From a virus, in the IMG/VR virus record IMGVR_UViG_3300030101_002473, positions 1 through 30,340 of that record: 30,340 nucleotides of DNA; one strand, given 5' to 3'. The notes under the pieces are model-generated. The model did not search any database and was not told the origin of the DNA. It saw only the letters and a program-made list of their open reading frames with translations. Below, in pieces: positions 4,206-19,571 of the stretch. The translations under genes and the position numbers were made by a program. Position 1 is the stretch's first letter. Each line of letters opens with the position of its first letter.

Positions 4206-4789
4206 AATTTACTATTTTCTTTGTGTAACATATCTAGTATCATGCCTCCTACGTATATATCCTTATCTGTTAAGCTCTTGTATAAGTCCTTTGCTTTTTC
4301 ATAATCCTCAGCCTCAAAAGGTATCTGCAAAGCTCTCCTCACATCACTTTCCATATCATCTAGCTCACTAGAGAAATCTTCATCATCTAGTGCTGAGTAA
4401 TCAGGCGTATCCTCTTTACTAAAGAATTCAACTTCTTCAAATCCCCATTCTAGCAAGTCAGTTTCATCAAAGTAGTTAGCAAGCGCCTCCATATCAAACT
4501 TACCACCTGATTTATTAAGCCTTATATTGAGCTCTTTTTCTTTATCTAGTGTTAAATCTACATATACGACAGGTACTTTTTCCATTTCTAGGCTTTCTGC
4601 TACTCTTAGGCGCTGATGACCACCTACGACAATATTTTGCCTCTCAGCGTTTTTATTGACGATTATAGGCTCAACCATACCAAAGCGCTTAAAACTCGCT
4701 CTGAGGTCCTCAAATTGCTTTTTGGAGAGTGTTCTGGGGTTATATTCAGCAGGTATAAGCTCGCTGATTTTTTTCATTACAGTTTTCAT
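4202..4789 (-). CDS. ParB/Srx-superfamily N-terminal domain protein
   Basis: The 195-aa protein opens with the ParB-N fold as found ahead of phage DNA methylases: EYNPR (15-19), GMVEPIIVNK (37-46), VVGGHQRL (54-61), VPVVYVDL (72-79) and LNKSGGKFD (91-99). In those fusions the domain is followed by a methyltransferase; here the protein instead ends in an acidic linker and a short helical tail, with no methylase motif and no ParB DNA-binding helix-turn-helix. It starts as an ATGA overlap with the 4786-4944 gene and overlaps the dioxygenase start, so the three are co-translated. Known functions of such domains are nuclease or CTP/ATP binding; which applies here cannot be read from the sequence. 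Confidence 0.85.
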   Translation of the reverse strand: MKTVMKKISELIPAEYNPRTLSKKQFEDLRASFKRFGMVEPIIVNKNAERQNIVVGGHQRLRVAESLEMEKVPVVYVDLTLDKEKELNIRLNKSGGKFDMEALANYFDETDLLEWGFEEVEFFSKEDTPDYSALDDEDFSSELDDMESDVRRALQIPFEAEDYEKAKDLYKSLTDKDIYVGGMILDMLHKENSKL

Positions 4790-4944
4790 GATTTTTTATT
4801 ATTTTGATTAATATTCTTAGGTGTGCCTTTCATGTATTCTTTAATTATCTTGTTTACTAGCATCAATCGCTCCCTGTATTGTTGATAGGTTTCGTCCTTA
4901 GCTCTTTTATTACTAATGTTAATCTTGTTAAATACTGAGCTCAT
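4786..4944 (-). CDS. Small hypothetical protein (52 aa)
   Basis: ATG at 4942-4944, TGA at 4786-4788. It overlaps the stop of the preceding 73-aa gene by 17 bases and ends in an ATGA junction with the ParB-like gene, exactly the packing seen throughout this operon; that packing is the main reason to believe it. The product is hydrophilic and strongly charged, with KRAKDETYQQYRERL suggesting a helix, and an Asn/Lys-rich end. It has no recognisable domain, membrane segment or cysteine motif. Function unknown. Confidence 0.7.
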   Translation of the reverse strand: MSSVFNKINISNKRAKDETYQQYRERLMLVNKIIKEYMKGTPKNINQNNKKS

Positions 4945-5149
4945 AAAGTAATTTTATTTTCTTATGTACAGTAGCTAAGCATTTTCTGCATGATGTATTT
5001 TCTTTGTATCCTGTTTTGTACAGCTTGTTATATAGTGCAATCATTCTAGCAGTAGTAGCAACGCTATCAGCTACGCCTGTTTTTGTTCTATCATAAACAT
5101 ATTCAAGCTCAATCTTATCTTCTTCACTAAGTTTTACACTAGGCAACAT
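4928..5149 (-). CDS. Small hypothetical protein (73 aa)
   Basis: The 73-aa product is helical and ends in a CRKC pair within SCRKCLATVHKKIKLLYEL. The N-terminal half (KLSEEDKIELEYVYDRTKTG and ATTARMIALYNKLY) reads as two helices. It overlaps the zinc-ribbon gene upstream by 11 bases and the 52-aa gene downstream, so it is an interior gene of the operon from sigma-like factor to dioxygenase. I do not recognise the family. The two cysteines are too few for an obvious zinc site. Confidence 0.7.
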   Translation of the reverse strand: MLPSVKLSEEDKIELEYVYDRTKTGVADSVATTARMIALYNKLYKTGYKENTSCRKCLATVHKKIKLLYELSI

Positions 5150-5384
5150 ACCATTTATTTCTAGGACATCTTTCTGACTTCCATGAGGCCTTTTCTCTTA
5201 CAGGACATCCACATTCATTACAATGCTCAAAAGGCGTTGGCGTATCATCTAAGCTATCACAGGTTAAACACTCATGTATCCTCATCTCGTACTGTATTCC
5301 GTATAGTTTTCTAAAGCCATCTATTGTATGCCTAACTACAGCTATAGCAAACGTTATTATTTTTTTTATGCTAATTTTGTTCAT
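5139..5384 (-). CDS. Zinc-ribbon protein (81 aa)
   Basis: After a short N-terminal helical segment with a hydrophobic stretch (IITFAIAVV), the C-terminal half carries CLTC, then CNECGCP, then CP in a pattern expected to bind one or two zinc ions (Cys residues near 39, 42, 55, 58, 60 and 73). Small proteins of this type, ending in KASWKSERCP, are frequent in Bacteroidota phages and are of unknown role. A nucleic-acid-binding adaptor is plausible given its place between a sigma-like factor and a ParB-like protein, but that is inference. It overlaps both neighbours. Confidence 0.75.
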   Translation of the reverse strand: MNKISIKKIITFAIAVVRHTIDGFRKLYGIQYEMRIHECLTCDSLDDTPTPFEHCNECGCPVREKASWKSERCPRNKWYVA

Positions 5385-5910
5385 TTATCCTTTGTATTAT
5401 GTATTTTTTTACTCGTTTTATTGTGTTGAAAATACTAGTACGGCTTATGCCTGTACTCTCTGCTAATCCATGTAGTGTATTTTTGTTATAGTAGTACAGC
5501 TTGAATAGCTCTTTGTCGTACCAATACAGCTCGTCTACTATCTTATCTATTCTTTCTAGTAACTCGTATGTAGATGTAGTCGTGTAGTACATCAAGTCCA
5601 TAACATTAGTAACAGTAGCATTAGCATCTATGTACTCATAGTATTTTTTATATTTATAGTAGTATCTACTGTTTTTTGAATTCAGCATTAAGTTTAGAGC
5701 TCTGATACAGTACCATAATAAGCCTCCACCTTTGTATATCTCGTTTAGCTTATCATAGTCCTTTTCAAAGAGCCATACCATAAGCTCCTGTAAAGCATCG
5801 TCTCCATCTCTCTTATTGCCTGCAATGTTATGAGCAACCTCTCTTAGCCGTTCAATAGATGAAAGGATAGCGTCATGTACATCAGTTTCCTTTTCAGAAA
5901 GGCAAGTCAT
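5371..5910 (-). CDS. Sigma-70-like transcription factor
   Basis: The 179-aa protein resembles small sigma-like proteins of Bacteroidota phages. Residues about 20-75 look like a region 2-type helical domain (GNKRDGDDALQELMVWLFE, then LLWYCIRALNLMLNS), and the C-terminus has a region 4-type helix-turn-helix (TLHGLAESTGISRTSIFNTIKRVKKYI). The Tyr/Lys-rich middle is unusual. It would direct host RNA polymerase to phage promoters, perhaps those with the TATATTTAC variant box. The start lies inside the 3' end of the SSB-like gene (17-base overlap). A DNA-binding regulator without sigma activity is the alternative. Confidence 0.65.
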   Translation of the reverse strand: MTCLSEKETDVHDAILSSIERLREVAHNIAGNKRDGDDALQELMVWLFEKDYDKLNEIYKGGGLLWYCIRALNLMLNSKNSRYYYKYKKYYEYIDANATVTNVMDLMYYTTTSTYELLERIDKIVDELYWYDKELFKLYYYNKNTLHGLAESTGISRTSIFNTIKRVKKYIIQRINEQN

Positions 5911-6121
5911 CTTCTTGCTTGCTTTCTTGCTCAGGTGCTACATAAGGTTTCTGTATTTTAGCTGAGAAATAAGGCCTGTCATCACCTCTTACCCAAAGTG
6001 CAATCTCCTGTAGTGTTCCGTCTGCTAATTTAATCTTTCCTTTGTAATCTGGATAGTTATCAGATGTCTTGTTCTCTACCTTAAAAATAGTACCTGTTCC
6101 AGGTTTTTGCTCGTATGCCAT
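5894..6121 (-). CDS. Single-stranded DNA-binding-like protein (75 aa)
   Basis: The 75-aa protein has a short beta-rich body (GTIFKV, YKGKIKLADG, QEIALWVRG) compatible with a minimal OB-type fold, then a Gln/Glu-rich linker ending in EDDLPF. An acidic tip ending in Pro-Phe is the protein-interaction tail of bacterial SSBs, which recruits replication and repair proteins. It sits directly after the RusA resolvase, DnaB helicase and annealing protein genes, which fits a role in replication. It is much shorter than a canonical SSB (about 110 or more residues before the tail), so the fold assignment is inferred from the tail and context. Confidence 0.65.
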   Translation of the reverse strand: MAYEQKPGTGTIFKVENKTSDNYPDYKGKIKLADGTLQEIALWVRGDDRPYFSAKIQKPYVAPEQESKQEDDLPF

Positions 6122-6158
6122 AATTAAAATTTTCAGTAAACATAACTATAATCTACTA

Positions 6159-6189
6159 GTAAATATAAAAAATAGCAATATGTTTTCAA
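6159..6189 (-). promoter_or_regulatory. Candidate promoter for SSB/sigma/ParB operon
   Basis: In the 71-base gap between the RusA and SSB-like genes the minus strand has TTG (6187-6189), a 19-base spacer and TATATTTA (6160-6167), one base off TAnnTTTG. The gap is one of few in an otherwise overlapping operon. The start codon lies 37 bases further on. Confidence 0.35.
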
Positions 6190-6192
6190 CAA

Positions 6193-6564
6193 TCACCTGT
6201 AAATAAATATACTACCTTTGCCTCCTACCATCCATTTCTTAGTAGCTTTCACTGTATGTACTTTCTTATCTTCATCTAATAAACAATCTAAAAATGCCTT
6301 TAGTAAATTATCTATATCAGGTTTTTGTTGGTGTGGCTCTCCTGCATGCATAGCAACTTTTTTACTCGACCATGATTTAGGACAAGGTATATGAAATTCA
6401 ATATCTAATGTATCACCAGGCGTATAATTTTGCTCCTTTGCCTGCTGCTCTAGCATTTTTTTATACTTCCAATACCTCAGTACTACAGGTCTTTTTTTCC
6501 ATGCATCTGCTCTAGTCATACGAGGTTTTCCCATTACAGGTACACTAAAATGTATCATGCTCAT
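6193..6564 (-). CDS. rusA: RusA-family Holliday junction resolvase
   Basis: The 123-aa protein has the family layout: N-terminal beta strand with GKPRMTR, a central DIEFHIPCPKSWS strand, and the diagnostic KPDIDNLLKAFLD (81-93), whose Asp83 and Asp85, with an acid in LLDEDKKV near 99, are the metal-binding catalytic residues. It cuts four-way junctions made during recombination or replication, acting as a dimer. The start overlaps the DnaB stop as ATGA; a second in-frame ATG two codons later is possible. Length is normal for the family. Confidence 0.92.
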   Translation of the reverse strand: MSMIHFSVPVMGKPRMTRADAWKKRPVVLRYWKYKKMLEQQAKEQNYTPGDTLDIEFHIPCPKSWSSKKVAMHAGEPHQQKPDIDNLLKAFLDCLLDEDKKVHTVKATKKWMVGGKGSIFIYR

Positions 6565-7868
6565 AAGCCGAATGTTGTTACGGTTTCATCTACAAACTTA
6601 CAAAATTCTCCTTTAAATGCAATATTAATACTTCCTGTTTCTCCATGTCTGTTTTTTGCTAGTAGTACCTTACACGCCTCATCATTGCTTTGTTTACTAT
6701 AGTAGCTATCTCTATAGATGAACATTACCATATCTGCATCTTGCTCTATTGCTCCTGATTCTCTTAAATCGCTTAGCATAGGTGTTTTATCTGCTCTACT
6801 CTCTACAGCTCTACTAAGCTGAGATAAGCATATTACAGGTAATTCTAACTCCTTAGCTAGCACCTTTAATTGCCTACTAATATAGCTTATTTGCTGCTCT
6901 CTGTTTTGCTGCTTATTTTGTCTATCTTGACCTTGTATTAGCTGCAGGTAATCTACTAGTATCATATCTATTTTGTTTTCATGATTAAGCTTTCTAGCAA
7001 TCGTTCTAAGCTGATAAATATCTAAGCTAGCTGAATCATCTATAATAATGTTATTATCATTAACTAAGCTAGTAATGTCTTCATGTATTTTTTTGTGTTC
7101 ATCATTTGTTAGCTTACCTCTCTTAATCCTATCATGATTAATATTCGATTTGCTACTAATGAGCTTGTATCCTATCTCTCTAGAGCCCATCTCTAGGCTG
7201 AAGAATAAAGCACGTTTTTTTTGCTCTGCACATGTAGTCATAAAATTTAATGCTAGTGTTGTCTTGCCCATGCCTGGCCTAGCTGCTAGTATAATTAACT
7301 CACCTTGATTGAAGCCGTTAGTTAATCTATCAAGATACTTGTATCCTGTAGGTATACCTGTAATATTGCCTGTACTCTTACTAGCTTGTTCCATAGCTTT
7401 TAGGCTATCTGTAATTACCTCTGTTATACTATGATAGGACCTTATCTTAGCATGCCTTGATACTAGGTCTGTTAGATGAGCAACACTTGACAAGATATCA
7501 AAAACATCATTACTAGTGTCATGTACTTTGTCTACTATCTTGTGTACCTTTAGCAGCTCTCTTTTCATCTGATACTCCTTTAATATGTAACAGTGTTCCT
7601 GTATATTTAATGAAGTGCTACTAGTTAAATCAGTAATAGCGCTTAAATCTATTTTACCTTTAAGAGCTTCACCTACAGTAATGATATCAGGCACTTTACC
7701 TTTATTGTAGATTTCAATACATGTACTGTATATTTTAGCATGCTCCTTATCATAGAAACAATCTTTATTAACTAGGTCTGCTATTACGTGTATATCCTCC
7801 TCACTTGTTAGCATAGCGCCTAGTACTGCTTTCTCTATATCTTCTGCTTGTGGTATCTTACTAGTCAT
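6561..7868 (-). CDS. dnaB: Replicative DNA helicase, DnaB family
   Basis: Full length at 435 aa. The N-terminal domain (AEDIEKAVLGAML at 8-20) and the RecA-like ATPase domain are both present: Walker A AARPGMGKTT near 195-204, SLEMGSREI near 224-232, Walker B ILVDYLQL near 303-310, and the late SQLSRAVESR and DLRESGAIEQDADMV motifs (349-381). It unwinds the phage replication fork as a hexamer. It begins in an ATGA overlap with the winged-helix gene, whose product may load it; no separate primase was recognised, so the host primase may be used. Confidence 0.96.
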   Translation of the reverse strand: MTSKIPQAEDIEKAVLGAMLTSEEDIHVIADLVNKDCFYDKEHAKIYSTCIEIYNKGKVPDIITVGEALKGKIDLSAITDLTSSTSLNIQEHCYILKEYQMKRELLKVHKIVDKVHDTSNDVFDILSSVAHLTDLVSRHAKIRSYHSITEVITDSLKAMEQASKSTGNITGIPTGYKYLDRLTNGFNQGELIILAARPGMGKTTLALNFMTTCAEQKKRALFFSLEMGSREIGYKLISSKSNINHDRIKRGKLTNDEHKKIHEDITSLVNDNNIIIDDSASLDIYQLRTIARKLNHENKIDMILVDYLQLIQGQDRQNKQQNREQQISYISRQLKVLAKELELPVICLSQLSRAVESRADKTPMLSDLRESGAIEQDADMVMFIYRDSYYSKQSNDEACKVLLAKNRHGETGSINIAFKGEFCKFVDETVTTFGL

Positions 7869-8278
7869 GATATGAATTTTTTTAGTGGCTTTAAAGGTTT
7901 ATAATTATCATTATTGAATTGCAACCTTTTGCTAATTTTTGTTTTACTTTTATACTCATCTGCCTGATAATTTTTGTAGTTAAGTATCTGAATTACAGAG
8001 CATTTATTATAAGTTTTTTTGGTGATTTGTTTTACTTTTTCAAATTTTTTGATTATCCTATAGCATTGCATTTCAGATATACCTGTCTGTTCGCTAAGGC
8101 CTTTCATGCTACATAATATCTGTCCTGGTCTTATAGTATATTCTCTGCCTTTGAACTTCCATGTACTACCATTATGAGATGCTCTTATTAATAGATGCAG
8201 CCATAAATGTATGTATTGTGATTTCTTATAGTACTTGTTTAGCGCTATCTTTCTGTGTAACTTTATGTATCCTTTCAT
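7865..8278 (-). CDS. Winged-helix replication protein, possible helicase loader/initiator
   Basis: The 137-aa protein starts KGYIKLHRKI and continues with YIHLWLHLLIRASH, YTIRPGQILCSMKGLSEQTGISEMQCYRIIKKFEK, then a beta wing (KCSVIQILNY). This is the N-terminal winged-helix layout of phage replisome organiser or DnaD-like proteins, here without the usual C-terminal helicase-loading domain. It precedes dnaB with an ATGA junction, so a role in helicase delivery or origin binding is likely. It overlaps the DnaA-like gene by 53 bases; I keep this start because the KxxIKLHRKI beginning is typical of the family. Confidence 0.72.
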   Translation of the reverse strand: MKGYIKLHRKIALNKYYKKSQYIHLWLHLLIRASHNGSTWKFKGREYTIRPGQILCSMKGLSEQTGISEMQCYRIIKKFEKVKQITKKTYNKCSVIQILNYKNYQADEYKSKTKISKRLQFNNDNYKPLKPLKKFIS

Positions 8279-8810
8279 TCTTCTGTAGTTTTTTAATGTT
8301 AATATCTATGTTGTATCTAGCAAATGCAAAAAGTATCGTTTTTAAGCATTTTGGCGCATTTTCAATGCTTCGGTATATGTTTGCCCTAAAATTACCCAAA
8401 GTTATCGCAAATCGTACCTTTTGGCGTGCTTTCGGTATGTTTGTCTCGATTATCTTGATGTTATTTTGCTGTAAAATATGATTGAATTTAGCTGAATCAA
8501 GATGCTCAAAGCTATGATAATTCTCTCCTTGTAGTGCAGCTTTTAGGGCCTTGTAAAATACTCTATATCTATCAAAATACATCATGTTATCATCATGACA
8601 GTTATACCAATAGCAGAAAGTAGTTCTGTCTCTGCTAGTAATATATTTAGCTAGTTCTCCATAATCTATAGCGAGCTCTCGCATGATGTAATTACATGTG
8701 CATTGTCTTACAATAGTTAGTATCTGTTTTCTAGATGACCAGTGAAAAGAGCCTACAGGTATCCCTGCAAGCTCCTCACTTGTTTTAATTATATCCTCAA
8801 TTACTTGCAT
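8226..8810 (-). CDS. Protein with DnaA domain IV-like DNA-binding segment
   Basis: From the ATG at 8810 the protein has 194 aa. Residues about 12-80 match the DnaA C-terminal helix-turn-helix: a helix with SSRKQILTIVRQCTCNYIMRE, then GELAKYITSRDRTTFCYW, equivalent to the GRDHTTV DnaA-box-reading loop (here Arg60-Asp61-Arg62-Thr63-Thr64). No AAA+ ATPase domain is present. It probably recognises phage origin sequences. The 3' quarter (8226-8480) encodes a basic Lys/Asn-rich tail whose DNA holds an imperfect tandem repeat, as if an origin were embedded in the gene, like lambda O. An upstream ATG at 8873 would overlap the annealing-protein gene by 77 bases; 8810 gives a 14-base overlap and is preferred. 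Confidence 0.7.
   Translation of the reverse strand: MQVIEDIIKTSEELAGIPVGSFHWSSRKQILTIVRQCTCNYIMRELAIDYGELAKYITSRDRTTFCYWYNCHDDNMMYFDRYRVFYKALKAALQGENYHSFEHLDSAKFNHILQQNNIKIIETNIPKARQKVRFAITLGNFRANIYRSIENAPKCLKTILFAFARYNIDINIKKLQKNERIHKVTQKDSAKQVL
8328..8445. repeat. Imperfect tandem repeat, candidate origin/iterons
   Basis: Two related units, about 8328-8385 and 8398-8445, share AAAGT(T)ATCG, TTTTGGCG, TGCT(T)TCGGTAT and GTTTG in the same order; the first carries a 9-base insertion. They lie in the 3' part of the gene for the DnaA domain IV-like protein. Placement in an initiator gene suggests binding sites of the replication origin. Confidence 0.45.
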
Positions 8811-9441
8811 CCTGTGATTCTTTTTCCTTGATTGCTTTATCAAGTACATCGTATTGGTCTGCACTAACTTCATAATCTACTAGCTTTGCCTTTACTGTAG
8901 CTGCTTGACCTTGATGTATATAGTCTATCATTGATACTAGTATTTGCTTTGTCATCTTTTTCTTGAAAGCATTTCTAGGATGTGGCCTATCAAGATTTAC
9001 TTCACTATATTCCTTTTCTAGCTCTGCTACATATCTGTTATCATCATACTTACCTATAAATACATCAGCATTAAAGCCTATCTTAGAAAGGCCTTTAGTT
9101 AATGCATCTGTGCTCACTTTCTTGTAGATTTCATCATCTAGCTTACCTTTGCTATTATGAGTTGCTATACAGCTATTAATAGGATACGAGTGCTTATCCT
9201 CTCCTAGCTTGTACCAAAATGTTGCTTGATAGCCTAGTAGACCATCACATACCATAGTAAAGTTTTCATTTGATACTCCCCATCCATCGCCATAAGGGCC
9301 GAATTGTTCTGTAGCTGTTTGGATTTGATAGTATGCATTAACAGTAGTAAACTTTCTACCAAAGCCTAGCTTTCTAGTGTATTTTGGATTAGTTTTTTCA
9401 ACACTATTCCAGAGTTCCATATTTATAGTTTTGTCTTTCAT
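8797..9441 (-). CDS. Single-strand annealing protein, Rad52/Erf-like
   Basis: In this 214-aa protein, residues about 36-56 (AYYQIQTATEQFGPYGDGWG) are the signature of the DUF1071/Rad52-like phage recombinases, in which a Tyr/Ala helix is followed by FGxxGxGW. STDALTKGLSKIGFNADVFIG near 128-148 is the other conserved block. Such proteins anneal complementary single strands in phage recombination and repair, often with an SSB; an SSB-like protein and RusA are encoded just downstream. It starts in an ATGA overlap with the 9438 gene. The basic C-terminus (KKKMTKQ, then helices) is less conserved. The exact family among phage annealing proteins would need a profile search. Confidence 0.78.
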   Translation of the reverse strand: MKDKTINMELWNSVEKTNPKYTRKLGFGRKFTTVNAYYQIQTATEQFGPYGDGWGVSNENFTMVCDGLLGYQATFWYKLGEDKHSYPINSCIATHNSKGKLDDEIYKKVSTDALTKGLSKIGFNADVFIGKYDDNRYVAELEKEYSEVNLDRPHPRNAFKKKMTKQILVSMIDYIHQGQAATVKAKLVDYEVSADQYDVLDKAIKEKESQDASN

Positions 9442-9737
9442 GATTTATTATTGTTTTGATTAGTAAAATGTGGTTCGTGATATACCTCGTACAGGTATCT
9501 ATCGCCTACGTCATCATCTTCATAGATGCGCTCTACTACAGTAAGATGTACATTAAGAGTTAGCTTTCTAAGCATACTCTGTATATTCTCTGCAGGCTTT
9601 TGTAGCCAATAGCCAAATCTTAAGTAAAGGCTGCTAACAGGACCGTCGCTATGCTCAGGATATGTGCTAGTAGCGCCTACGTCAAATACGCCATACTTTT
9701 CTTCTAGTAGTATTAAGTGATTAATATGTATTCTCAT
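9438..9737 (-). CDS. Hypothetical early protein (99 aa)
   Basis: Both ends are ATGA junctions with neighbours (9734-9737 and 9438-9441), so it is firmly part of the early operon between unknown small genes and the annealing protein. The 99-aa product is mixed alpha/beta with a central SSLYLRFGYWLQKP segment and an acidic YEDDDVGDRYLYEVYHEPHF region. No domain, membrane segment or metal motif is recognised. Function unknown. Confidence 0.75.
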   Translation of the reverse strand: MRIHINHLILLEEKYGVFDVGATSTYPEHSDGPVSSLYLRFGYWLQKPAENIQSMLRKLTLNVHLTVVERIYEDDDVGDRYLYEVYHEPHFTNQNNNKS

Positions 9738-9931
9738 GTTTTCTGTATGTATTTAATTAAACAATCTTTTAGATATTCCTTATCATGTAGATGACAAGCC
9801 TCATACAAGTCCATAGTAACGTGCACCTCCTCACCATCTATAATACATGTATAATATACTTCTCCTGTATCATCGCTTGCATGCACAGTAATAACTTTCT
9901 CTACATAGACCTGTTTTATATCAGAGCTCAT
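9734..9931 (-). CDS. Hypothetical early protein (65 aa)
   Basis: From the ATG at 9929-9931, which overlaps the previous gene's TGA as ATGA, the product has 65 aa. A longer reading from 9973 would add 14 basic residues and a 46-base overlap, and is less likely. The protein is beta-rich (VYVEKVITV, EVYYTCIIDGEEVHVTM) with a helical C-terminus (EACHLHDKEYLKDCLIKYI). No known domain is visible. Its role in the early operon is unknown. Confidence 0.72.
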   Translation of the reverse strand: MSSDIKQVYVEKVITVHASDDTGEVYYTCIIDGEEVHVTMDLYEACHLHDKEYLKDCLIKYIQKT

Positions 9932-10182
9932 AAGGCGTGCTCTTTTTCTATCTCCTCTCGCTCCTTTTCCCACTCTTTAATATACCATTCATCAATAGCA
10001 TAGTTCTGATAAGCAACGCCATCAGTTACTATGTGCGAGCATGTCTCAATAAATTCATATTTATCATAGTAGAGGTCATCGGGTAATATAGTGTTATTAT
10101 CTATTGTATGTAGCCAATAGATGGTATGACCATCTGCTGTATCTAGGTAATCAAATACCATTTTTTTAATTTCGTTTTTCAT
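9928..10182 (-). CDS. Hypothetical acidic early protein (84 aa)
   Basis: The 84-aa protein is acidic and aromatic-rich (TIYWLHTIDN, PDDLYYDKYEFIETC, DEWYIKEWEKEREEIEKEHAL), ending in a charged helix. Small acidic early phage proteins sometimes mimic DNA or inhibit host enzymes, but nothing here proves that. It starts three bases after the 138-aa gene's stop and ends in an ATGA overlap with the 65-aa gene. The family is not recognised. Confidence 0.72.
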   Translation of the reverse strand: MKNEIKKMVFDYLDTADGHTIYWLHTIDNNTILPDDLYYDKYEFIETCSHIVTDGVAYQNYAIDEWYIKEWEKEREEIEKEHAL

Positions 10183-10185
10183 GTG

Positions 10186-10602
10186 TTATTTTTTTAATTT
10201 TATACTTAGTGTTGGTTGTCCGTGCTTCACTATAGGCGCTTTTAATATTTCGCCTGTTTTCTCATCTATTATTGTATGCTTTAGAGCTTGCTTGTGCCTT
10301 TCTTTAATAGCTTTGAGCTCTAATTCTTTAGTAATAACCTCAGGTATGTTGCTATAATCATACCTAGTAGCGCTATTCTTGATAGTTATATCAGCATCCA
10401 TGTAGCCAAAAGTCATCTTACCATACTTCTCAGCCTCATCAACCGATATGTCTTTTAAGCGTTTTTTAGCCGTTTTAAGCGCATCTTCTATTTTTTTGAT
10501 GGTTATATATACGTCGAGAGGGTTTATATCGCCTTGCAGCACCTTTTGTACTAAATTATCGACGTCTGTCTGTATCTTATTCGTCTTAATTATTTCGTTC
10601 AT
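10186..10602 (-). CDS. Hypothetical early protein (138 aa), common phage type
   Basis: The 138-aa protein has an N-terminal helical half (TDVDNLVQKVLQGDINPLDVYITIKKIEDALKTAKKR) and a second half with GYMDADITIKNSATRYDYSNIPE and a charged C-terminal helix. This INPLxVYxxxKxxExAL pattern is familiar from early regions of Bacteroidota phages near recombination genes, but I know of no established function. It starts one base after the 111-aa gene's stop. A structural accessory to recombination is guesswork. Confidence 0.75.
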   Translation of the reverse strand: MNEIIKTNKIQTDVDNLVQKVLQGDINPLDVYITIKKIEDALKTAKKRLKDISVDEAEKYGKMTFGYMDADITIKNSATRYDYSNIPEVITKELELKAIKERHKQALKHTIIDEKTGEILKAPIVKHGQPTLSIKLKK

Positions 10603-10603
10603 T

Positions 10604-10939
10604 TTAGTATTCCTTTAGATTGTTAGCTACTCTTTTTCTATATCTCTCAAGCCTGATGATACTAGTCATCGCCTTTCTTACCATGTCTGCACAATCCTGA
10701 TATGCTAGGCCTCTTACATTGTCTGAATGTTTTTTCATTAGCGAATGTGCAATATTTTCCATGATACTAGCTTGTAGGTTTAGCTCGTCGTACACAGTTT
10801 CTGCATCGAATTTACTAATGCCCTCTAGCCTTAATTGCTTAGTTACTCTTTTTGTTGTTAGAGTATCTTCGTTTTCTAATCTAGTAACCTCTGCCTGAAG
10901 CTCCTCGATTGTTCTAGTATTTTTTTCTTCGTTTTTCAT
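10604..10939 (-). CDS. Hypothetical coiled-coil early protein (111 aa)
   Basis: The 111-aa product begins with a heptad-rich coiled coil (TIEELQAEVTRLENEDTLTTKRVTKQL), followed by two helices (ETVYDELNLQASIMENIAHSL and QDCADMVRKAMTSIIRLERYRKRV). It is the first gene after hammerhead ribozyme 2: cleavage between 10965 and 10964 would give this mRNA a 25-nt leader with a 5'-hydroxyl. The leader is A/T-rich without Shine-Dalgarno. Function unknown. Confidence 0.72.
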   Translation of the reverse strand: MKNEEKNTRTIEELQAEVTRLENEDTLTTKRVTKQLRLEGISKFDAETVYDELNLQASIMENIAHSLMKKHSDNVRGLAYQDCADMVRKAMTSIIRLERYRKRVANNLKEY

Positions 10940-10958
10940 GATTTTTGTAATTATAGTT

Positions 10959-11043
10959 TATACTGACTAGATGAGGCTGAACACACTAGTAAAAGCACCT
11001 CACCTAGTTTCGCTAGGTTACTATCCTAGCTCATCAGAGTACA
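10959..11043 (-). ncRNA. Hammerhead ribozyme 2 (type I topology)
   Basis: On the minus strand all hammerhead elements occur in order. Stem I 5' strand UGUACU (11043-11038); core CUGAUGA (11037-11031); stem II GCUAGG / CCUAGC (11030-11025 and 11017-11012), a perfect 6 bp with a 7-nt loop; core GAAA (11011-11008); stem III CUAGGUGAGG / CCUCAUCUAG (11007-10998 and 10976-10967), 10 bp with one G-U, 21-nt loop; UC (10966-10965); stem I 3' strand AGUAUA. A15.1-U16.1 pairing is present and C17 is the cleavage base, so cleavage falls between 10965 and 10964. The open ends are in stem I. The core overlaps codons Leu-Met-Ser and the TAG stop of the 160-aa gene; the stop lies in stem II. Confidence 0.92.
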
Positions 11044-11508
11044 TTTCATTACTGAATAAGCATGTCTTATTATCTCTACTAATACGCTCTCTAGCATTTG
11101 TAGCTTGTACTTAGGCATTCTATTACTACAAGCTAGGTCCATTACTAGATTATTGAAATCTGTATCTAGTCCTGCATACTGCAAAGTAAATGATTGTTTT
11201 TCTAGATACTTATTAACAGGCACACATAGTTCTCTGTAAAATTTGCTCATTTCAGTTTCACCAAAATTTACTTCAGCTATATTACAGCCACCATTGTTAT
11301 ACAAATCATAGTAGCACCTTGATACGCCTAGTAGAGCATTCATTACATTATTTAACTGAGCATCTCTATACATGCACATACCTGATGTAGGTATTAGCTC
11401 CCACAGCTTATCATACCATATTTGTACAGGCGAGTTACCTGACCATATTGTAGTTTCATCAAAGTCCTTTGATACCTTATCATATTGTGTTGCATTTATT
11501 GTCGTCAT
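11026..11508 (-). CDS. Unknown protein (160 aa) encoded between two hammerhead ribozymes
   Basis: The 160-aa product is mostly helical with nine Cys and frequent Tyr/Met; QIWYDKLWELIP, LGVSRCYYDLYNN and a C-terminal helix (KLQMLESVLVEIIRHAYSVM) stand out. No family is recognised. Self-cleavage at ribozyme 1 (11535|11534) and ribozyme 2 (10965|10964) would release a 570-nt RNA carrying just this ORF with a 26-nt leader. Its last codons and stop are part of ribozyme 2, so terminating ribosomes would cover the catalytic core. It follows the ArdC-like gene, so a role in counter-defence is a guess from position only. Confidence 0.75.
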   Translation of the reverse strand: MTTINATQYDKVSKDFDETTIWSGNSPVQIWYDKLWELIPTSGMCMYRDAQLNNVMNALLGVSRCYYDLYNNGGCNIAEVNFGETEMSKFYRELCVPVNKYLEKQSFTLQYAGLDTDFNNLVMDLACSNRMPKYKLQMLESVLVEIIRHAYSVMKCTLMS

Positions 11509-11527
11509 TTTTTTATATTTTATTATT

Positions 11528-11585
11528 AGTAACAGACCTGGATACTACTCCAGGTTTCGCTCTATCAGAGCTCATCAGTGCTACT
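11528..11585 (-). ncRNA. Hammerhead ribozyme 1 (type I topology)
   Basis: A compact 58-nt hammerhead on the minus strand. Stem I 5' strand AGUAGCA (11585-11579); core CUGAUGA (11578-11572); stem II GCUC / GAGC (11571-11568 and 11562-11559) with loop UGAUA; core GAAA (11558-11555); stem III CCUGG / CCAGG (11554-11550 and 11541-11537) with an 8-nt loop; UC (11536-11535); stem I 3' strand UGUUACU (11534-11528), 7 bp with one G-U. Every core base matches the consensus, including the A15.1-U16.1 pair and C17; cleavage is between 11535 and 11534. Open ends are in stem I. The ArdC-like gene's TAG stop (11583-11581) lies inside stem I, and the next ATG is 26 nt past the cleavage site. Confidence 0.94.
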
Positions 11586-12516
11586 TGTTAATGATACGCT
11601 TAACAGCTTTCTCTGCTGCTCCACCTGCTTTTAGTATCCACTTAGGCTCACTACCTAGCTTGCTAATCCAACCGTTAATATAAGCCTGAGAATTATCATC
11701 ATTATCAGACGGCTTAACACCTGTGAATGCTACTAAGTACATAGAGCCCATCTCTGCTATTAGCTCCTCAAATGAGTAAGTATCACTACCAAATGCAACA
11801 CTAGCTTCACCTGATACGCCTTTTCTGTTTAATCTAGTACTGTGGCCTGTACTGTGTACTAACTCATGAAATAAAGTTTTGTAGTAGTCATCAGTAGACA
11901 AGAAAGCCTCAGGACGTGGCATCTGTACTAGGTCCTGAGATGGTCTGTAGAATGCTTTTTGGCCTCCATGCTTTAGCTCAGGAGCTTGATAGTAGTCTCT
12001 GTATACACTACCTGCTGATTCAATAGGCTGATAGATGCTAGTTGCTTTAGGCTTAGATGCCTTAGGTAATTTAAGGCCCTCACATTGTGCTACATTAAAT
12101 ACTCTAAAGTATCTAGGAGACCAATTCTCTGATACACCTTTATCACTAGGCTTATGACCTGCTTTAGCAAGAGCCTTAGCATTAGCGTACCATTTACCAT
12201 CAGCAAAATAAGATACTAGCCAATAGATAACTTCATTGCCTTTCTCACCTGTCTTTACATTGCCTCCTAGCTCCTCAGCTTGCTTATAAGTAACAAACTC
12301 AGGTCTAATCCATTCGTTAGCTCTCATGCTTGCAGATAATAAAAGTACGTTGATGCCGTTATACTCTTTCTTAGTTTTTAGATTACATGGCACGATAAAC
12401 TCGCCATCGTTGTTAGTCCACGGCTTGAACCATGATAAGCCGTCTTTCTTTAATCCGTCTATTACTTTGTTTGTAATTACTTCGTATACTGTTGTTTTTG
12501 TGTTAGTGTTATTCAT
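11581..12516 (-). CDS. ardC: ArdC-like antirestriction protein (ssDNA-binding plus zinc peptidase-like domain)
   Basis: The 311-aa protein has two domains. Residues about 5-150 are the ArdC N-terminal single-stranded DNA-binding type: LSWFKPW, PCNLKTKKEYNGINVLLL, FVTYKQAEELGGNVKTGEKG, YFRVFNVAQCEGL. The C-terminal domain is the zincin-like peptidase: MPRPEAFLSTDDYYKTLFHELVH with HELVH at 217-221, STGHSTRL, and EELIAE at 250-255 supplying the third ligand. ArdC proteins protect incoming DNA from host restriction. Early position supports that role, and the genome also lacks GATC entirely, a second sign of restriction pressure. Its stop codon lies in stem I of ribozyme 1. Confidence 0.88.
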   Translation of the reverse strand: MNNTNTKTTVYEVITNKVIDGLKKDGLSWFKPWTNNDGEFIVPCNLKTKKEYNGINVLLLSASMRANEWIRPEFVTYKQAEELGGNVKTGEKGNEVIYWLVSYFADGKWYANAKALAKAGHKPSDKGVSENWSPRYFRVFNVAQCEGLKLPKASKPKATSIYQPIESAGSVYRDYYQAPELKHGGQKAFYRPSQDLVQMPRPEAFLSTDDYYKTLFHELVHSTGHSTRLNRKGVSGEASVAFGSDTYSFEELIAEMGSMYLVAFTGVKPSDNDDNSQAYINGWISKLGSEPKWILKAGGAAEKAVKRIINK

Positions 12517-12543
12517 TTTTTTATTATTTTAAGATTATTATTA

Positions 12544-12777
12544 TTAGTATGTTGTGTCCATTGTTAGGTCGTATGTAAAGCCCTCTAGAGCCTGCTTGAT
12601 TGTATGATAGTTATGTACGAAATCTCTTGTAGGACCTGTGAATGTTAGCTCTACATCGCCTGACTTGATAGTCCATGTTAGCGCTTTACTTCTTGATGTT
12701 AAGATTACTTCTTCTGCTTGTAGTAGTGATGTTAATTGTTCTACTGTGCTTAATGTTTTTTTACTAGTGTTGTTCAT
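12544..12777 (-). CDS. Hypothetical first gene of early operon (77 aa)
   Basis: The 77-aa protein starts like the ArdC-like product (MNNT), a local similarity that may reflect shared leader sequence. It has an N-terminal helix (LSTVEQLTSLLQAEEVIL), a central beta segment (ALTWTIKSGDVELTFTG) and a final GFTYDLTMDTTY. No domain is recognised. It is the first gene downstream of the 292-base non-coding region, so it probably leads the early operon. A small DNA-binding or antirestriction accessory would fit but is speculative. Confidence 0.65.
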   Translation of the reverse strand: MNNTSKKTLSTVEQLTSLLQAEEVILTSRSKALTWTIKSGDVELTFTGPTRDFVHNYHTIKQALEGFTYDLTMDTTY

Positions 12778-12814
12778 TTGTTAAAATTTTATATTCTTAA
12801 TTTTTTTGTCATTG

Positions 12815-12846
12815 CAAAGTTGAAACATTTTTTTTAATTGGCCAAA
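12815..12846 (-). promoter_or_regulatory. Candidate early promoter
   Basis: On the minus strand TTTG (12846-12843), a 20-base spacer and CAACTTTG (12822-12815) differ from the Bacteroidota consensus TTTG...TAnnTTTG by one base. Transcription would start near 12808, about 30 bases before the ATG at 12777. Confidence 0.45.
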
Positions 12847-12868
12847 CATTTTTATAAAAAAAGTAAAA

Positions 12869-12974
12869 CCAATACTAGTAAATTGTCAAAAAAAAAATAA
12901 AAAAGTGATAAAAATTGTGTGATTTTGCGAGAATATGCAAAAAAAGTTATAAAAATTTGTCGCCAATACTAGTA
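12869..12974. repeat. Two CCAATACTAGTA direct repeats
   Basis: The 12-mer occurs at 12869-12880 and 12963-12974, followed by AAATT and AAAATT respectively. A near copy (CAATACTAGCA) begins repeat A at 1675. They lie upstream of the candidate early promoter and could be regulator-binding sites. Confidence 0.4.
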
Positions 12975-13060
12975 AAATTAACTTCGCAAAGTTTTTAAGT
13001 CAAAGTGTAGCAGATAGTGTAAAGTCGCTTAAAACGCACAAAAAGTGCCTTAAATCGTAT
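12964..13060 (+). repeat. 97-bp intergenic repeat, copy B
   Basis: Same length and orientation as copy A at 1675-1771, 71 of 97 bases identical without gaps. The internal hairpin here is GCAC / GTGC around AAAAA (13036-13048), replacing AAACGTA / TACGTTT of copy A: the structure is kept while the bases change. It lies between the small basic gene at 13070 and the early control region. Confidence 0.75.
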
Positions 13061-13069
13061 TTTGTCGTT

Positions 13070-13240
13070 TTACGCTTTTTTTGTTTTTAGCCTTGCGCAA
13101 TTTTGCTTATGCGCATTTTTTGCTTCGGCAATTTTTTGTTCATCGCCTGACTTTATGGCTTGTTGCAGTTTTTTGTATGACCTGTTACACTTACATAACA
13201 TAAGTTTTTTTATATTCGTTTTACCTTTACGCTTACTCAT
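13070..13240 (-). CDS. Small basic protein (56 aa)
   Basis: The ATG at 13238-13240 overlaps the metallophosphoesterase stop as ATGA, so this start is preferred over the ORF's upstream ATG at 13294, which would run 58 bases into that gene. The product is strongly basic (SKRKGKTNIKKL, CKCNRSYKKLQQAIKSG, KNAHKQNCARLKTKK) with three Cys, compatible with nucleic-acid binding. No family is recognised. It is the last gene before the early control region and repeat B. Confidence 0.6.
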   Translation of the reverse strand: MSKRKGKTNIKKLMLCKCNRSYKKLQQAIKSGDEQKIAEAKNAHKQNCARLKTKKA

Positions 13241-13971
13241 AGCTTCTGAGGTATTACAACAGGTATACTTCCATTGTCTAGTATTACAGCACATGATATT
13301 ATGTATTTTTTAGTGAAGTTTTTAGCATAGGCCATAGCATAGCTCTTATCGTCTACTCCTACACCTGTTTGTACGGCAAACGTTCTCCTATCTTTGTCTA
13401 CTTTCCACATGATAGTAGCTTCTGTATGTAAATGACCTTGTACTACTGACATACCCCAATTTACCATACGATTATATGCAGCTTTAAGGCCTGAGCTACC
13501 TGTACCATGAGTATAATATACATCATCGTACACAAAATGGTCGTCAAAGGTCCAACCTGGTGTGCCTAGCACCTCGTCATAATCTCTTATCCATCTATTA
13601 GATAGTCCTGAGCTTAATGCTTTTCTACATACAATAGCATCATGATTGCCTATACATACATCTGCTACAGGGAATGCTTCATACCATTTCTTAATATGCG
13701 AGATAGCTCTATCAAGCTCCTCTCCTGCTGAAAAGCCATCTGGGTTAGTTTCATGATAGCTTGAGTAGTGATTGTCTATTAAATCGCCTATAAACACTAC
13801 CTGTGTACAGTTATACTTGTTGTATACATTTACACAGTGCTCTAAATAGCCTCTTTTAATGAAAGGTGCATGCAAATCACCGATTACTAGTACATTTCTA
13901 GTAGTATTTTTTCTGTAATCTTCAATTAAGCTGTATTCTTTTGGTGATAATCTGTATTGTTTGTTAGTCAT
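13237..13971 (-). CDS. Calcineurin-like metallophosphoesterase
   Basis: The 244-aa protein has all metal-ligand motifs of the family in order: GDLH (Asp32, His34), GDLIDNH (Asp63), GNHD (Asn109, His110), YTHG (His155) and GHLH (His180, His182). It hydrolyses phosphodiester or phosphomonoester bonds; substrate is not predictable. Phage members are usually 200-260 aa and lie in non-structural regions, as here beside lysis genes. A promoter-like sequence lies just upstream. The downstream small basic gene is coupled through ATGA. Confidence 0.9.
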   Translation of the reverse strand: MTNKQYRLSPKEYSLIEDYRKNTTRNVLVIGDLHAPFIKRGYLEHCVNVYNKYNCTQVVFIGDLIDNHYSSYHETNPDGFSAGEELDRAISHIKKWYEAFPVADVCIGNHDAIVCRKALSSGLSNRWIRDYDEVLGTPGWTFDDHFVYDDVYYTHGTGSSGLKAAYNRMVNWGMSVVQGHLHTEATIMWKVDKDRRTFAVQTGVGVDDKSYAMAYAKNFTKKYIISCAVILDNGSIPVVIPQKL

Positions 13972-13975
13972 ATTA

Positions 13976-14005
13976 CAAAAATAGGAACACCTATCACTAT
14001 TGCAA
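13976..14005 (-). promoter_or_regulatory. Candidate promoter for metallophosphoesterase gene
   Basis: The minus strand has TTG (14005-14003), a 19-base spacer and TATTTTTG (13983-13976), a perfect TAnnTTTG. The G is only four bases before the ATG at 13971, so a transcript from it would be nearly leaderless. The same stretch is also open in the frame of the holin-like gene. Confidence 0.35.
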
Positions 14006-14039
14006 TAGATGCTCCGTTAAGTTTTGAACGTATTATTGT

Positions 14040-17666: not shown

Positions 17667-18395
17667 TTACATGTTTTGTATTACAAAGTTAAGCCTTTGT
17701 ACCATTGCACTAAGAACAGCATTTTCAGCACAGCTATATACAATGACCTCACCCATAGTACCTAAATAATCATTTAGTAAAGAGTTTCGCACTCCTATTG
17801 TATTAATATCTAATACCTTTGTTGCATTATTAGTAGCTGTTGAGCTTTGTAACGTACCATTAATAAATACTCTGATTACATTAAGTTTTCGTTGTATGAT
17901 TATATGATATGGCGTCTCGTCAGGTAATGTATCATCAAGAGCAATTGACCTAAGTTGATTATCTGCTTTGATATCTATTTGTTCTTGGTTAGAGATTCTT
18001 ATGAAATCTTGATTAGATGTGCTATCTGCTAATAATATACCATTACTTATACTAGGTGTTGTGCTCAATGCAAAACCTATAGTAAAGTCGTCCATAGGTG
18101 TTATTGCACTACCTGTTTGAAAGAGATGTGCATCTTCACCATCAAAATCATAACTGTTACCATTCCATTCAGGCATATTGTCTTGAGCTGTTTGTTTATA
18201 GTCTCTTTGATTAGGCGATACATCAAACCACCTGCTAATCTTTGTAGGTAAAGCTGTGTTGTTTATTAGTAGGTGTGAGCCGTGCATTAGATGCAGCTCA
18301 TAACCATCATCACAAGTACCATCAGCAGGAGGTATTTCGCTAGTACTTACTTTTATCCTGTTTAAGGATAACTTATTTGCCATACTAAGATACAT
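17667..18395 (-). CDS. LamG/concanavalin-like virion adhesin
   Basis: Residues about 90-235 of the 242-aa protein show a jelly-roll pattern typical of LamG-like lectin domains: FTIGFALSTTPSISNGILLADS, then FIRISNQEQIDIKADNQ, then YHIIIQRKLNVIRVFINGTLQSS and GTMGEVIVYS. Such domains on phage particles bind surface glycans. The ATG at 18395 overlaps the previous stop as TAATG; a second ATG four codons later (MANK) is also plausible. It lies between capsid/tail and portal genes, suggesting a head decoration or tail adhesin. Confidence 0.7.
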   Translation of the reverse strand: MYLSMANKLSLNRIKVSTSEIPPADGTCDDGYELHLMHGSHLLINNTALPTKISRWFDVSPNQRDYKQTAQDNMPEWNGNSYDFDGEDAHLFQTGSAITPMDDFTIGFALSTTPSISNGILLADSTSNQDFIRISNQEQIDIKADNQLRSIALDDTLPDETPYHIIIQRKLNVIRVFINGTLQSSTATNNATKVLDINTIGVRNSLLNDYLGTMGEVIVYSCAENAVLSAMVQRLNFVIQNM

Positions 18396-19536: not shown

Positions 19537-19571
19537 AAAAAGGAGGATACTAGTATTAATACCCTCCTTTT
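19537..19571 (-). terminator. Rho-independent terminator after capsid/tail-tube operon
   Basis: AAAAGGAGG (19538-19546) and CCTCCTTTT (19563-19571) form a 9-bp stem around a 16-base AT-rich loop containing ATACTAGTAT. On the minus strand the stem is followed by five T. The symmetrical A and T arms make it potentially bidirectional. It lies 26 bases beyond the stop of the tail-tube-like gene. Confidence 0.85.

Follow-up and report, generated by a model that had tools for sequence, protein, structure and literature searches.

Two type I hammerhead ribozymes that probably punctuate the messages of a one-strand phage operon

What do two self-cleaving ribozymes do when they stand on either side of a single gene in a phage genome? 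The locus raising this question lies in a 30,340-nt stretch of viral DNA, positions 1 to 30,340 of IMG/VR record IMGVR_UViG_3300030101_002473 (the window). An earlier note on this DNA had located two cleavage sites enclosing one 160-aa ORF, and our analysis bears this out: both sites belong to complete type I hammerheads on the minus strand (HHR-A and HHR-B), and the coordinates, the 570-nt length of the enclosed RNA and the leaders of 26 nt (160-aa ORF) and 25 nt (111-aa gene) past the cuts are exact. Its statement that no such phage system had been described is wrong, since one was reported in 2011 by Perreault et al. (PMC3088659), who found prophages in which clusters of hammerheads flank single genes, in one case ardA. 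Three of their tandem arrays cleaved in vitro and the ardA array of A. tumefaciens cleaved in E. coli; the single-gene and circle ideas were already raised in that study, which sought circles from the arrays and found none. Clustered phage hammerheads of this kind are marked by two or more ribozymes on the same strand that flank one gene or a short block; the window has two around one gene and is a further case of a kind known since 2011. Later work has found self-cleaving ribozymes clustered near one another and near phage genes, without known reason, and the role of prokaryotic hammerheads is still called an open question (PMC6155905, PMC10085705).

Both ribozymes contain the full conserved core (CUGANGA and GAAA, with GUC as the UH-type triplet) and three helices, of which II and III are closed by loops and I is open, as in type I. 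The lengths of stems I/II/III are 7/5/6 in HHR-A and 6/6/11 in HHR-B. The sequence of HHR-A is AGUAGCA-CUGAUGA-GCUCUGAUAGAGC-GAAA-CCUGGAGUAGUAUCCAGG-UC^UGUUACU and that of HHR-B is UGUACU-CUGAUGA-GCUAGG(AUAGUAA)CCUAGC-GAAA-long stem III-UC^AGUAUA, the caret marking the cut. Folded alone, each has the hammerhead as its minimum-energy structure (z -2.6 for HHR-A, -3.2 and -3.5 for HHR-B). Rfam matches HHR-A only (Hammerhead_HH9, E 1.1e-4, under the gathering score of the family). A covariance model made from 35 phage hammerheads, HHR-A itself included, gives E 2.4e-12 for HHR-A and E 0.007 for HHR-B, the latter being weak because its stem III exceeds that of the model; the same model finds no third copy in the window genome. 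The core pattern occurs three times in the window against 0.25 expected, and the third match, at 17887-17923, was rejected as it is without stems. A three-stem descriptor matches both HHR-A and HHR-B and nothing in 1.6 Mb of shuffled sequence. Type II hammerheads are found neither in the window nor in the loci of the 160-aa family. Comparison of HHR-B with its orthologue in a close genome (L128) reveals two stem II pairs altered on both sides; HHR-A has no close orthologue for such a comparison, and covariation is that of HHR-B alone. A chance origin of both hammerheads is excluded. Judged by their sequences, HHR-A and HHR-B are genuine type I hammerheads for which self-cleavage is predicted, and some of the ribozymes predicted in this study could be inactive.

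Table 1. Positions of the ribozymes, their parts and the neighbouring features in the window
Feature	Position	Strand	Remarks
HHR-A, type I hammerhead	11528..11585	-	cut between 11535 and 11534
HHR-A stem I	11585-11579 / 11534-11528	-	
HHR-A core CUGAUGA	11578-11572	-	
HHR-A stem II	11571-11559	-	
HHR-A GAAA	11558-11555	-	
HHR-A stem III	11554-11537	-	
HHR-B, type I hammerhead, long stem III	10959..11043	-	cut between 10965 and 10964
HHR-B stem I	11043-11038 / 10964-10959	-	
HHR-B core CUGAUGA	11037-11031	-	
HHR-B stem II	11030-11012	-	
HHR-B GAAA	11011-11008	-	
Predicted excised RNA, 570 nt	10965..11534	-	5'-OH and 2',3'-cyclic phosphate ends, predicted from sequence and hammerhead chemistry
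160-aa ORF (P0001)	11026..11508	-	uncharacterised phage family with YDxYNNGxxN motif (protein search)
ArdC-like anti-restriction protein, 311 aa	11581..12516	-	Pfam ArdcN 3.7e-24, MPTase-PolyVal 3.3e-32
111-aa ORF	10604..10939	-	25-nt leader past HHR-B cut; equal length in L128 and L129
Strong terminator-like hairpin	13984..14015	-	upstream of the metallophosphoesterase gene

The first 98 bases of the window are repeated at its end, and with this terminal repeat it looks like a complete phage genome. All described genes (portal, tape measure, terminase, DnaB helicase, ArdC and its neighbours) are carried on the minus strand. The nearest named phages of the portal protein are the Nonlabens phages P12024S/L (~36% identity), and the only two relatives of ArdC recovered from cellular genomes come from a Flavobacteriales MAG and a Balneolaceae MAG; therefore, a Bacteroidota-like host is likely. 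DNA and protein searches found no match in named phages to the DNA of positions 9000-13000 or to the 160-aa protein. The operon order is metallophosphoesterase, ArdC, the 160-aa gene and the 111-aa gene, onward to the DnaB helicase gene, and the terminator-like hairpin ahead of these genes is the probable start boundary of the ribozyme-bearing operon. A terminator scan saw no terminator-like site at HHR-A or HHR-B, and promoter scans gave results near chance. Rfam matches to IS009, DUF805b and STnc390 were discarded as chance or terminator; the sub-threshold STnc390 match at 19538-19571 on the minus strand is best read as an intrinsic terminator. The metallophosphoesterase gene (13237-13971), which heads the operon, is kept in both close genomes. 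Some enzymes of the metallophosphoesterase superfamily open 2',3'-cyclic phosphates, and a connection of this gene with the ribozyme-made RNA ends is therefore possible.

The ArdC stop codon (11583-11581) sits in stem I of HHR-A, and the stop codon of the 160-aa ORF, the only ORF within the excised RNA, lies in stem II of HHR-B; the last codons of this gene (LMS*) are at the same time the HHR-B core and stem II. Both cuts are located between ORFs, with stops upstream and starts downstream, and cleavage would spare both ORFs. As the earlier note proposed for a polycistronic RNA, the arrangement looks built for cutting between genes, and HHR-A and HHR-B probably divide a long phage transcript into separate messages. 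We hold, with a probability of about 0.7, that the two hammerheads punctuate the mRNA of a one-strand phage operon during transcription, because full cores occur beyond chance, the cuts fall between ORFs and leader lengths are narrow; because HHR-B is kept in three genomes at the same distance before the 111-aa gene, with compensatory changes in stem II; and because tandem arrays of like kind were cut in vitro, and one of them in E. coli (PMC3088659).

In such punctuation the transcript would be cut while being made, each ribozyme forming in a stop-to-start gap and cutting once, with the ORFs left whole. The message on the ArdC side would have the stem II/III hairpins at its 3' end and would carry a 2',3'-cyclic phosphate there. 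The 570-nt piece would be a linear monocistronic mRNA for the 160-aa protein, with a 5'-OH and a short A-rich leader, and the third message, again with a 5'-OH and an A-rich leader of ~25 nt, would carry the 111-aa gene and the following replication genes. The likely gain is that neighbouring genes could be stabilised and translated independently without separate promoters or terminators. A 5'-OH end should resist decay stimulated by a 5'-phosphate and a 3' hairpin should resist exonucleases; we infer these effects on stability and translation from what is generally known of mRNA decay in bacteria, and we likewise infer cleavage during infection. A terminating ribosome would cover the 5' half of the ribozyme, and cutting may await it.

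The wider sample consists of 551 loci, most of them fetched by ribozyme motif, and therefore describes hammerhead-bearing phages and not phages at large. Motif scans of viral contigs each gave at least the matches listed, and type I hammerheads are therefore common in viral contigs. Among the matches listed, the 551 loci contain 329 distinct type I hammerheads, of which 243 have a stop codon no more than 60 nt from the core together with an ATG no more than 60 nt from the cut, and only 6 lie inside an ORF spanning the cut. The distance from cut to ATG, again among the matches listed, peaks at 24-30 nt, with A-rich leaders, and falls in the range of 20-35 nt in 62% of 305 cases against 16% of control junctions (KS p ~1e-41), the controls being virtual cuts set in ribozyme-free gaps of the same loci. 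Leaders of 20-35 nt are thus usual for phage hammerheads, and the near-equal spacing in the window lends no support to a designed pair. Genes neighbouring the ribozymes are mostly unrelated (381 clusters among 515 proteins), and those within the 52 single-gene brackets found among the matches listed in the 551 loci (fragments of 179-949 nt) are mostly uncharacterised. In record IMGVR_UViG_3300006924_000032, nine same-strand type I hammerheads stand within 4.3 kb (~4445-8713), and this array apparently cuts one operon into many short messages.

The position of the stop codons admits a regulated switch, in which the ribosome finishing the upstream gene controls cutting and so couples the cutting of the message to translation. 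Besides the overlaps in stem I of HHR-A and stem II of HHR-B, the upstream stop and the ribozyme overlap at 181 of the 329 hammerheads among the matches listed, and the hammerhead often supplies this stop itself (115 end in stem I and 36 in the core, whose CUGANGA includes a UGA). However, the overlap may merely save space, the stop comes before stem I in 106 of the same 329, and no extra conserved domain was seen beside the ribozymes. We regard such a switch as unlikely, and plain mRNA punctuation as the better account of these junctions.

Conservation was compared in two close genomes, a small sample. L129/L062 (29,707 bp) has a portal protein 69% and an ArdC 58% identical to those of the window. 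Its ArdC gene is followed by a 63-aa ORF; two hammerheads then bracket a 67-aa ORF, and the homologue of the 111-aa gene comes last. L128 (29,355 bp) is complete as judged by its terminal repeat of 123 nt. In the corresponding region it has only one hammerhead, which immediately precedes the 111-aa homologue, and neither ArdC nor the 160-aa gene is found there. The leader between the cut and the 111-aa gene is exactly 25 nt long in all three genomes, while the upstream gene differs. The ribozyme of L128 is recognisable as an orthologue of HHR-B, with ^AGUAUAAA past the cut and a 6-bp stem II. A possible pseudoknot between loop II and the leader has changed on both sides (AUAGU:ACUAU in the window, UGAU:AUCA in L128), for which the chance of the same register is ~0.003 in this post hoc comparison; across all phage hammerheads surveyed, loop II/leader pseudoknots are not in excess (13% vs 16% shuffled). 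As the junction before the 111-aa gene is kept in three genomes and the enclosed gene differs or is absent, it is the junction that is conserved and not the enclosed gene. The ribozymes mark gene junctions and are not tied to the 160-aa gene. Conservation of the HHR-B junction could be owed to a role other than mRNA processing.

A rival account treats the hammerheads as recombination linkers or selfish motifs between gene cassettes, whose cutting is tolerated and of little use. Stem I is alike among the ribozymes of one array, and the genes adjoining hammerheads are very diverse. The two copies in L129 (13972-14310), the second of which stands at the place of HHR-B, are near-identical before as well as after the cut, a likeness that suggests gene conversion or a recent duplication. 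However, the narrow leader length and the retention of HHR-B in L128 with compensatory changes both point to selection for a working ribozyme at a set distance. Mere linkers therefore seem to us rather improbable, and mRNA punctuation remains our preferred reading.

The enclosed gene belongs to a family spread widely among phages (loci L002-L061), in which the YDxYNNGxxN motif is invariant. Neither the protein nor its family has a match in Pfam or PHROG models. The AlphaFold model of the 160-aa protein is all-helical (mean pLDDT 79.5), and searches of PDB and BFVD gave no fold match with an E value of 0.1 or below. Among the family loci recovered by protein search, which are distant relatives, 59 of 60 show no hammerhead of type I or III in the flanking DNA covered (at most 3 kb); the remaining locus, L019, has two hammerheads ~2.2 kb upstream. 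Because family members exist without nearby hammerheads, the reading of the ribozymes as specific to this gene fails by the standard of the earlier note itself, which had named relatives having the gene without the ribozymes as refuting it. The comparison of relatives for a ribozyme pair around the same ORF, which the note had suggested as a check, comes out in part: among the close kin, the pair of L129 encloses another ORF and L128 has one ribozyme, and in the distant L317 a pair encloses a member of the family. L317 was found by an independent ribozyme-motif scan and not by the protein search. Its minus strand (6950-9201) carries ArdC and a 99-aa ORF, after which two hammerheads enclose a distant 145-aa member of the 160-aa family (E 1.5e-8); a 141-aa ORF follows, and the leaders are 29 nt long. 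This unrelated or distant phage nearly repeats the layout of the window. Genes of the family occupy 2 of the 52 brackets, which is suggestive of preferential bracketing and too few for a claim of enrichment.

The fate of the excised RNA was also considered. The earlier note had thought a circular coding RNA conceivable, with the 570-nt piece ligated by an RtcB-type ligase; reversal of the hammerhead reaction would be a second route. The predicted ends suit RtcB, and action of a host RtcB on them is conceivable; a search for RtcB genes, in which 9 of 14 control genomes scored, found none in 10 phage records with ribozymes, the window included. Formation of a circle by the hammerheads requires base pairing between the 5' half of stem I in HHR-B and the 3' half of stem I in HHR-A. 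In the window this cross-pairing amounts to 0 bp, short of what a circle-forming hammerhead needs, and ribozyme self-ligation is therefore strongly disfavoured. Elsewhere, 6 bp are possible in the sense needed for a circle in 19 of the 52 consecutive pairs, and in the sense that would join the outer pieces in 28; among random pairs the share is 4.5%. The asymmetry of stem I (17 pairs favour outer joining, 9 the circle) is not significant, and the loci are related; likeness of stem I within arrays is most simply explained by common descent or conversion. The hammerhead pair around the 160-aa gene is moreover not conserved, and the search for circles from such arrays by Perreault et al. was negative (PMC3088659). 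Circularisation of the 570-nt RNA is without support here and we consider it highly improbable; a linear message is what the punctuation reading predicts.

Among known systems, the closest are the clustered hammerheads of Perreault et al. (PMC3088659), such as the triple array of Agrobacterium tumefaciens, which likewise place several ribozymes on one phage transcript, flank single genes, adjoin an anti-restriction gene and have the same proposed outcome of single-gene mRNAs. The window differs in having ardC and not ardA, in its phage lineage and enclosed gene, and in having two type I ribozymes; its pair is known from sequence alone whereas the earlier arrays were cleaved in wet-lab assays. 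In haloviruses HF1/HF2, the HHphage hammerhead (Perreault et al. 2011) is also located shortly before a start codon (13 nt there) and makes the 5' end of an early message, but it is a single variant ribozyme of archaeal viruses, whereas the two of the window are canonical. Retrozymes and viroid-like RNAs (PMC4918200, PMC7761336) are likewise released between two hammerheads. These are repeats with like ribozymes that form circles, and retrozyme RNA is non-coding, whereas in the window the ribozymes differ, the excised piece is protein-coding and the stem I halves do not cross-pair. Theta ribozymes of gut phages (PMC10879173) are self-cleaving in Caudoviricetes too, with RNA maturation as proposed use, but have an HDV-like fold and are tied to tRNA 3' ends, while the hammerheads of the window are at mRNA junctions.

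The leader-length rule, the stop-codon overlap and the comparison of junction with gene are contributed by the present analysis, and were not found in the openly readable literature. It is a tentative possibility, which we hold to be less probable than not, that hammerhead arrays form a general punctuation code of many dsDNA phages, with up to nine ribozymes dividing an operon into mRNAs of one gene each, standard leaders of ~25 nt, cuts timed by the ribosome terminating within the ribozyme and exchangeable genes between the ribozymes. The layout of stop codon, ribozyme, ~25 nt and start codon, found over hundreds of phage junctions, is a precise and testable rule, and this fixed layout sharpens the mRNA-processing suggestion of 2011 into such a rule. 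The window, a small and seemingly complete phage genome with two ribozymes only, is suited to testing it.
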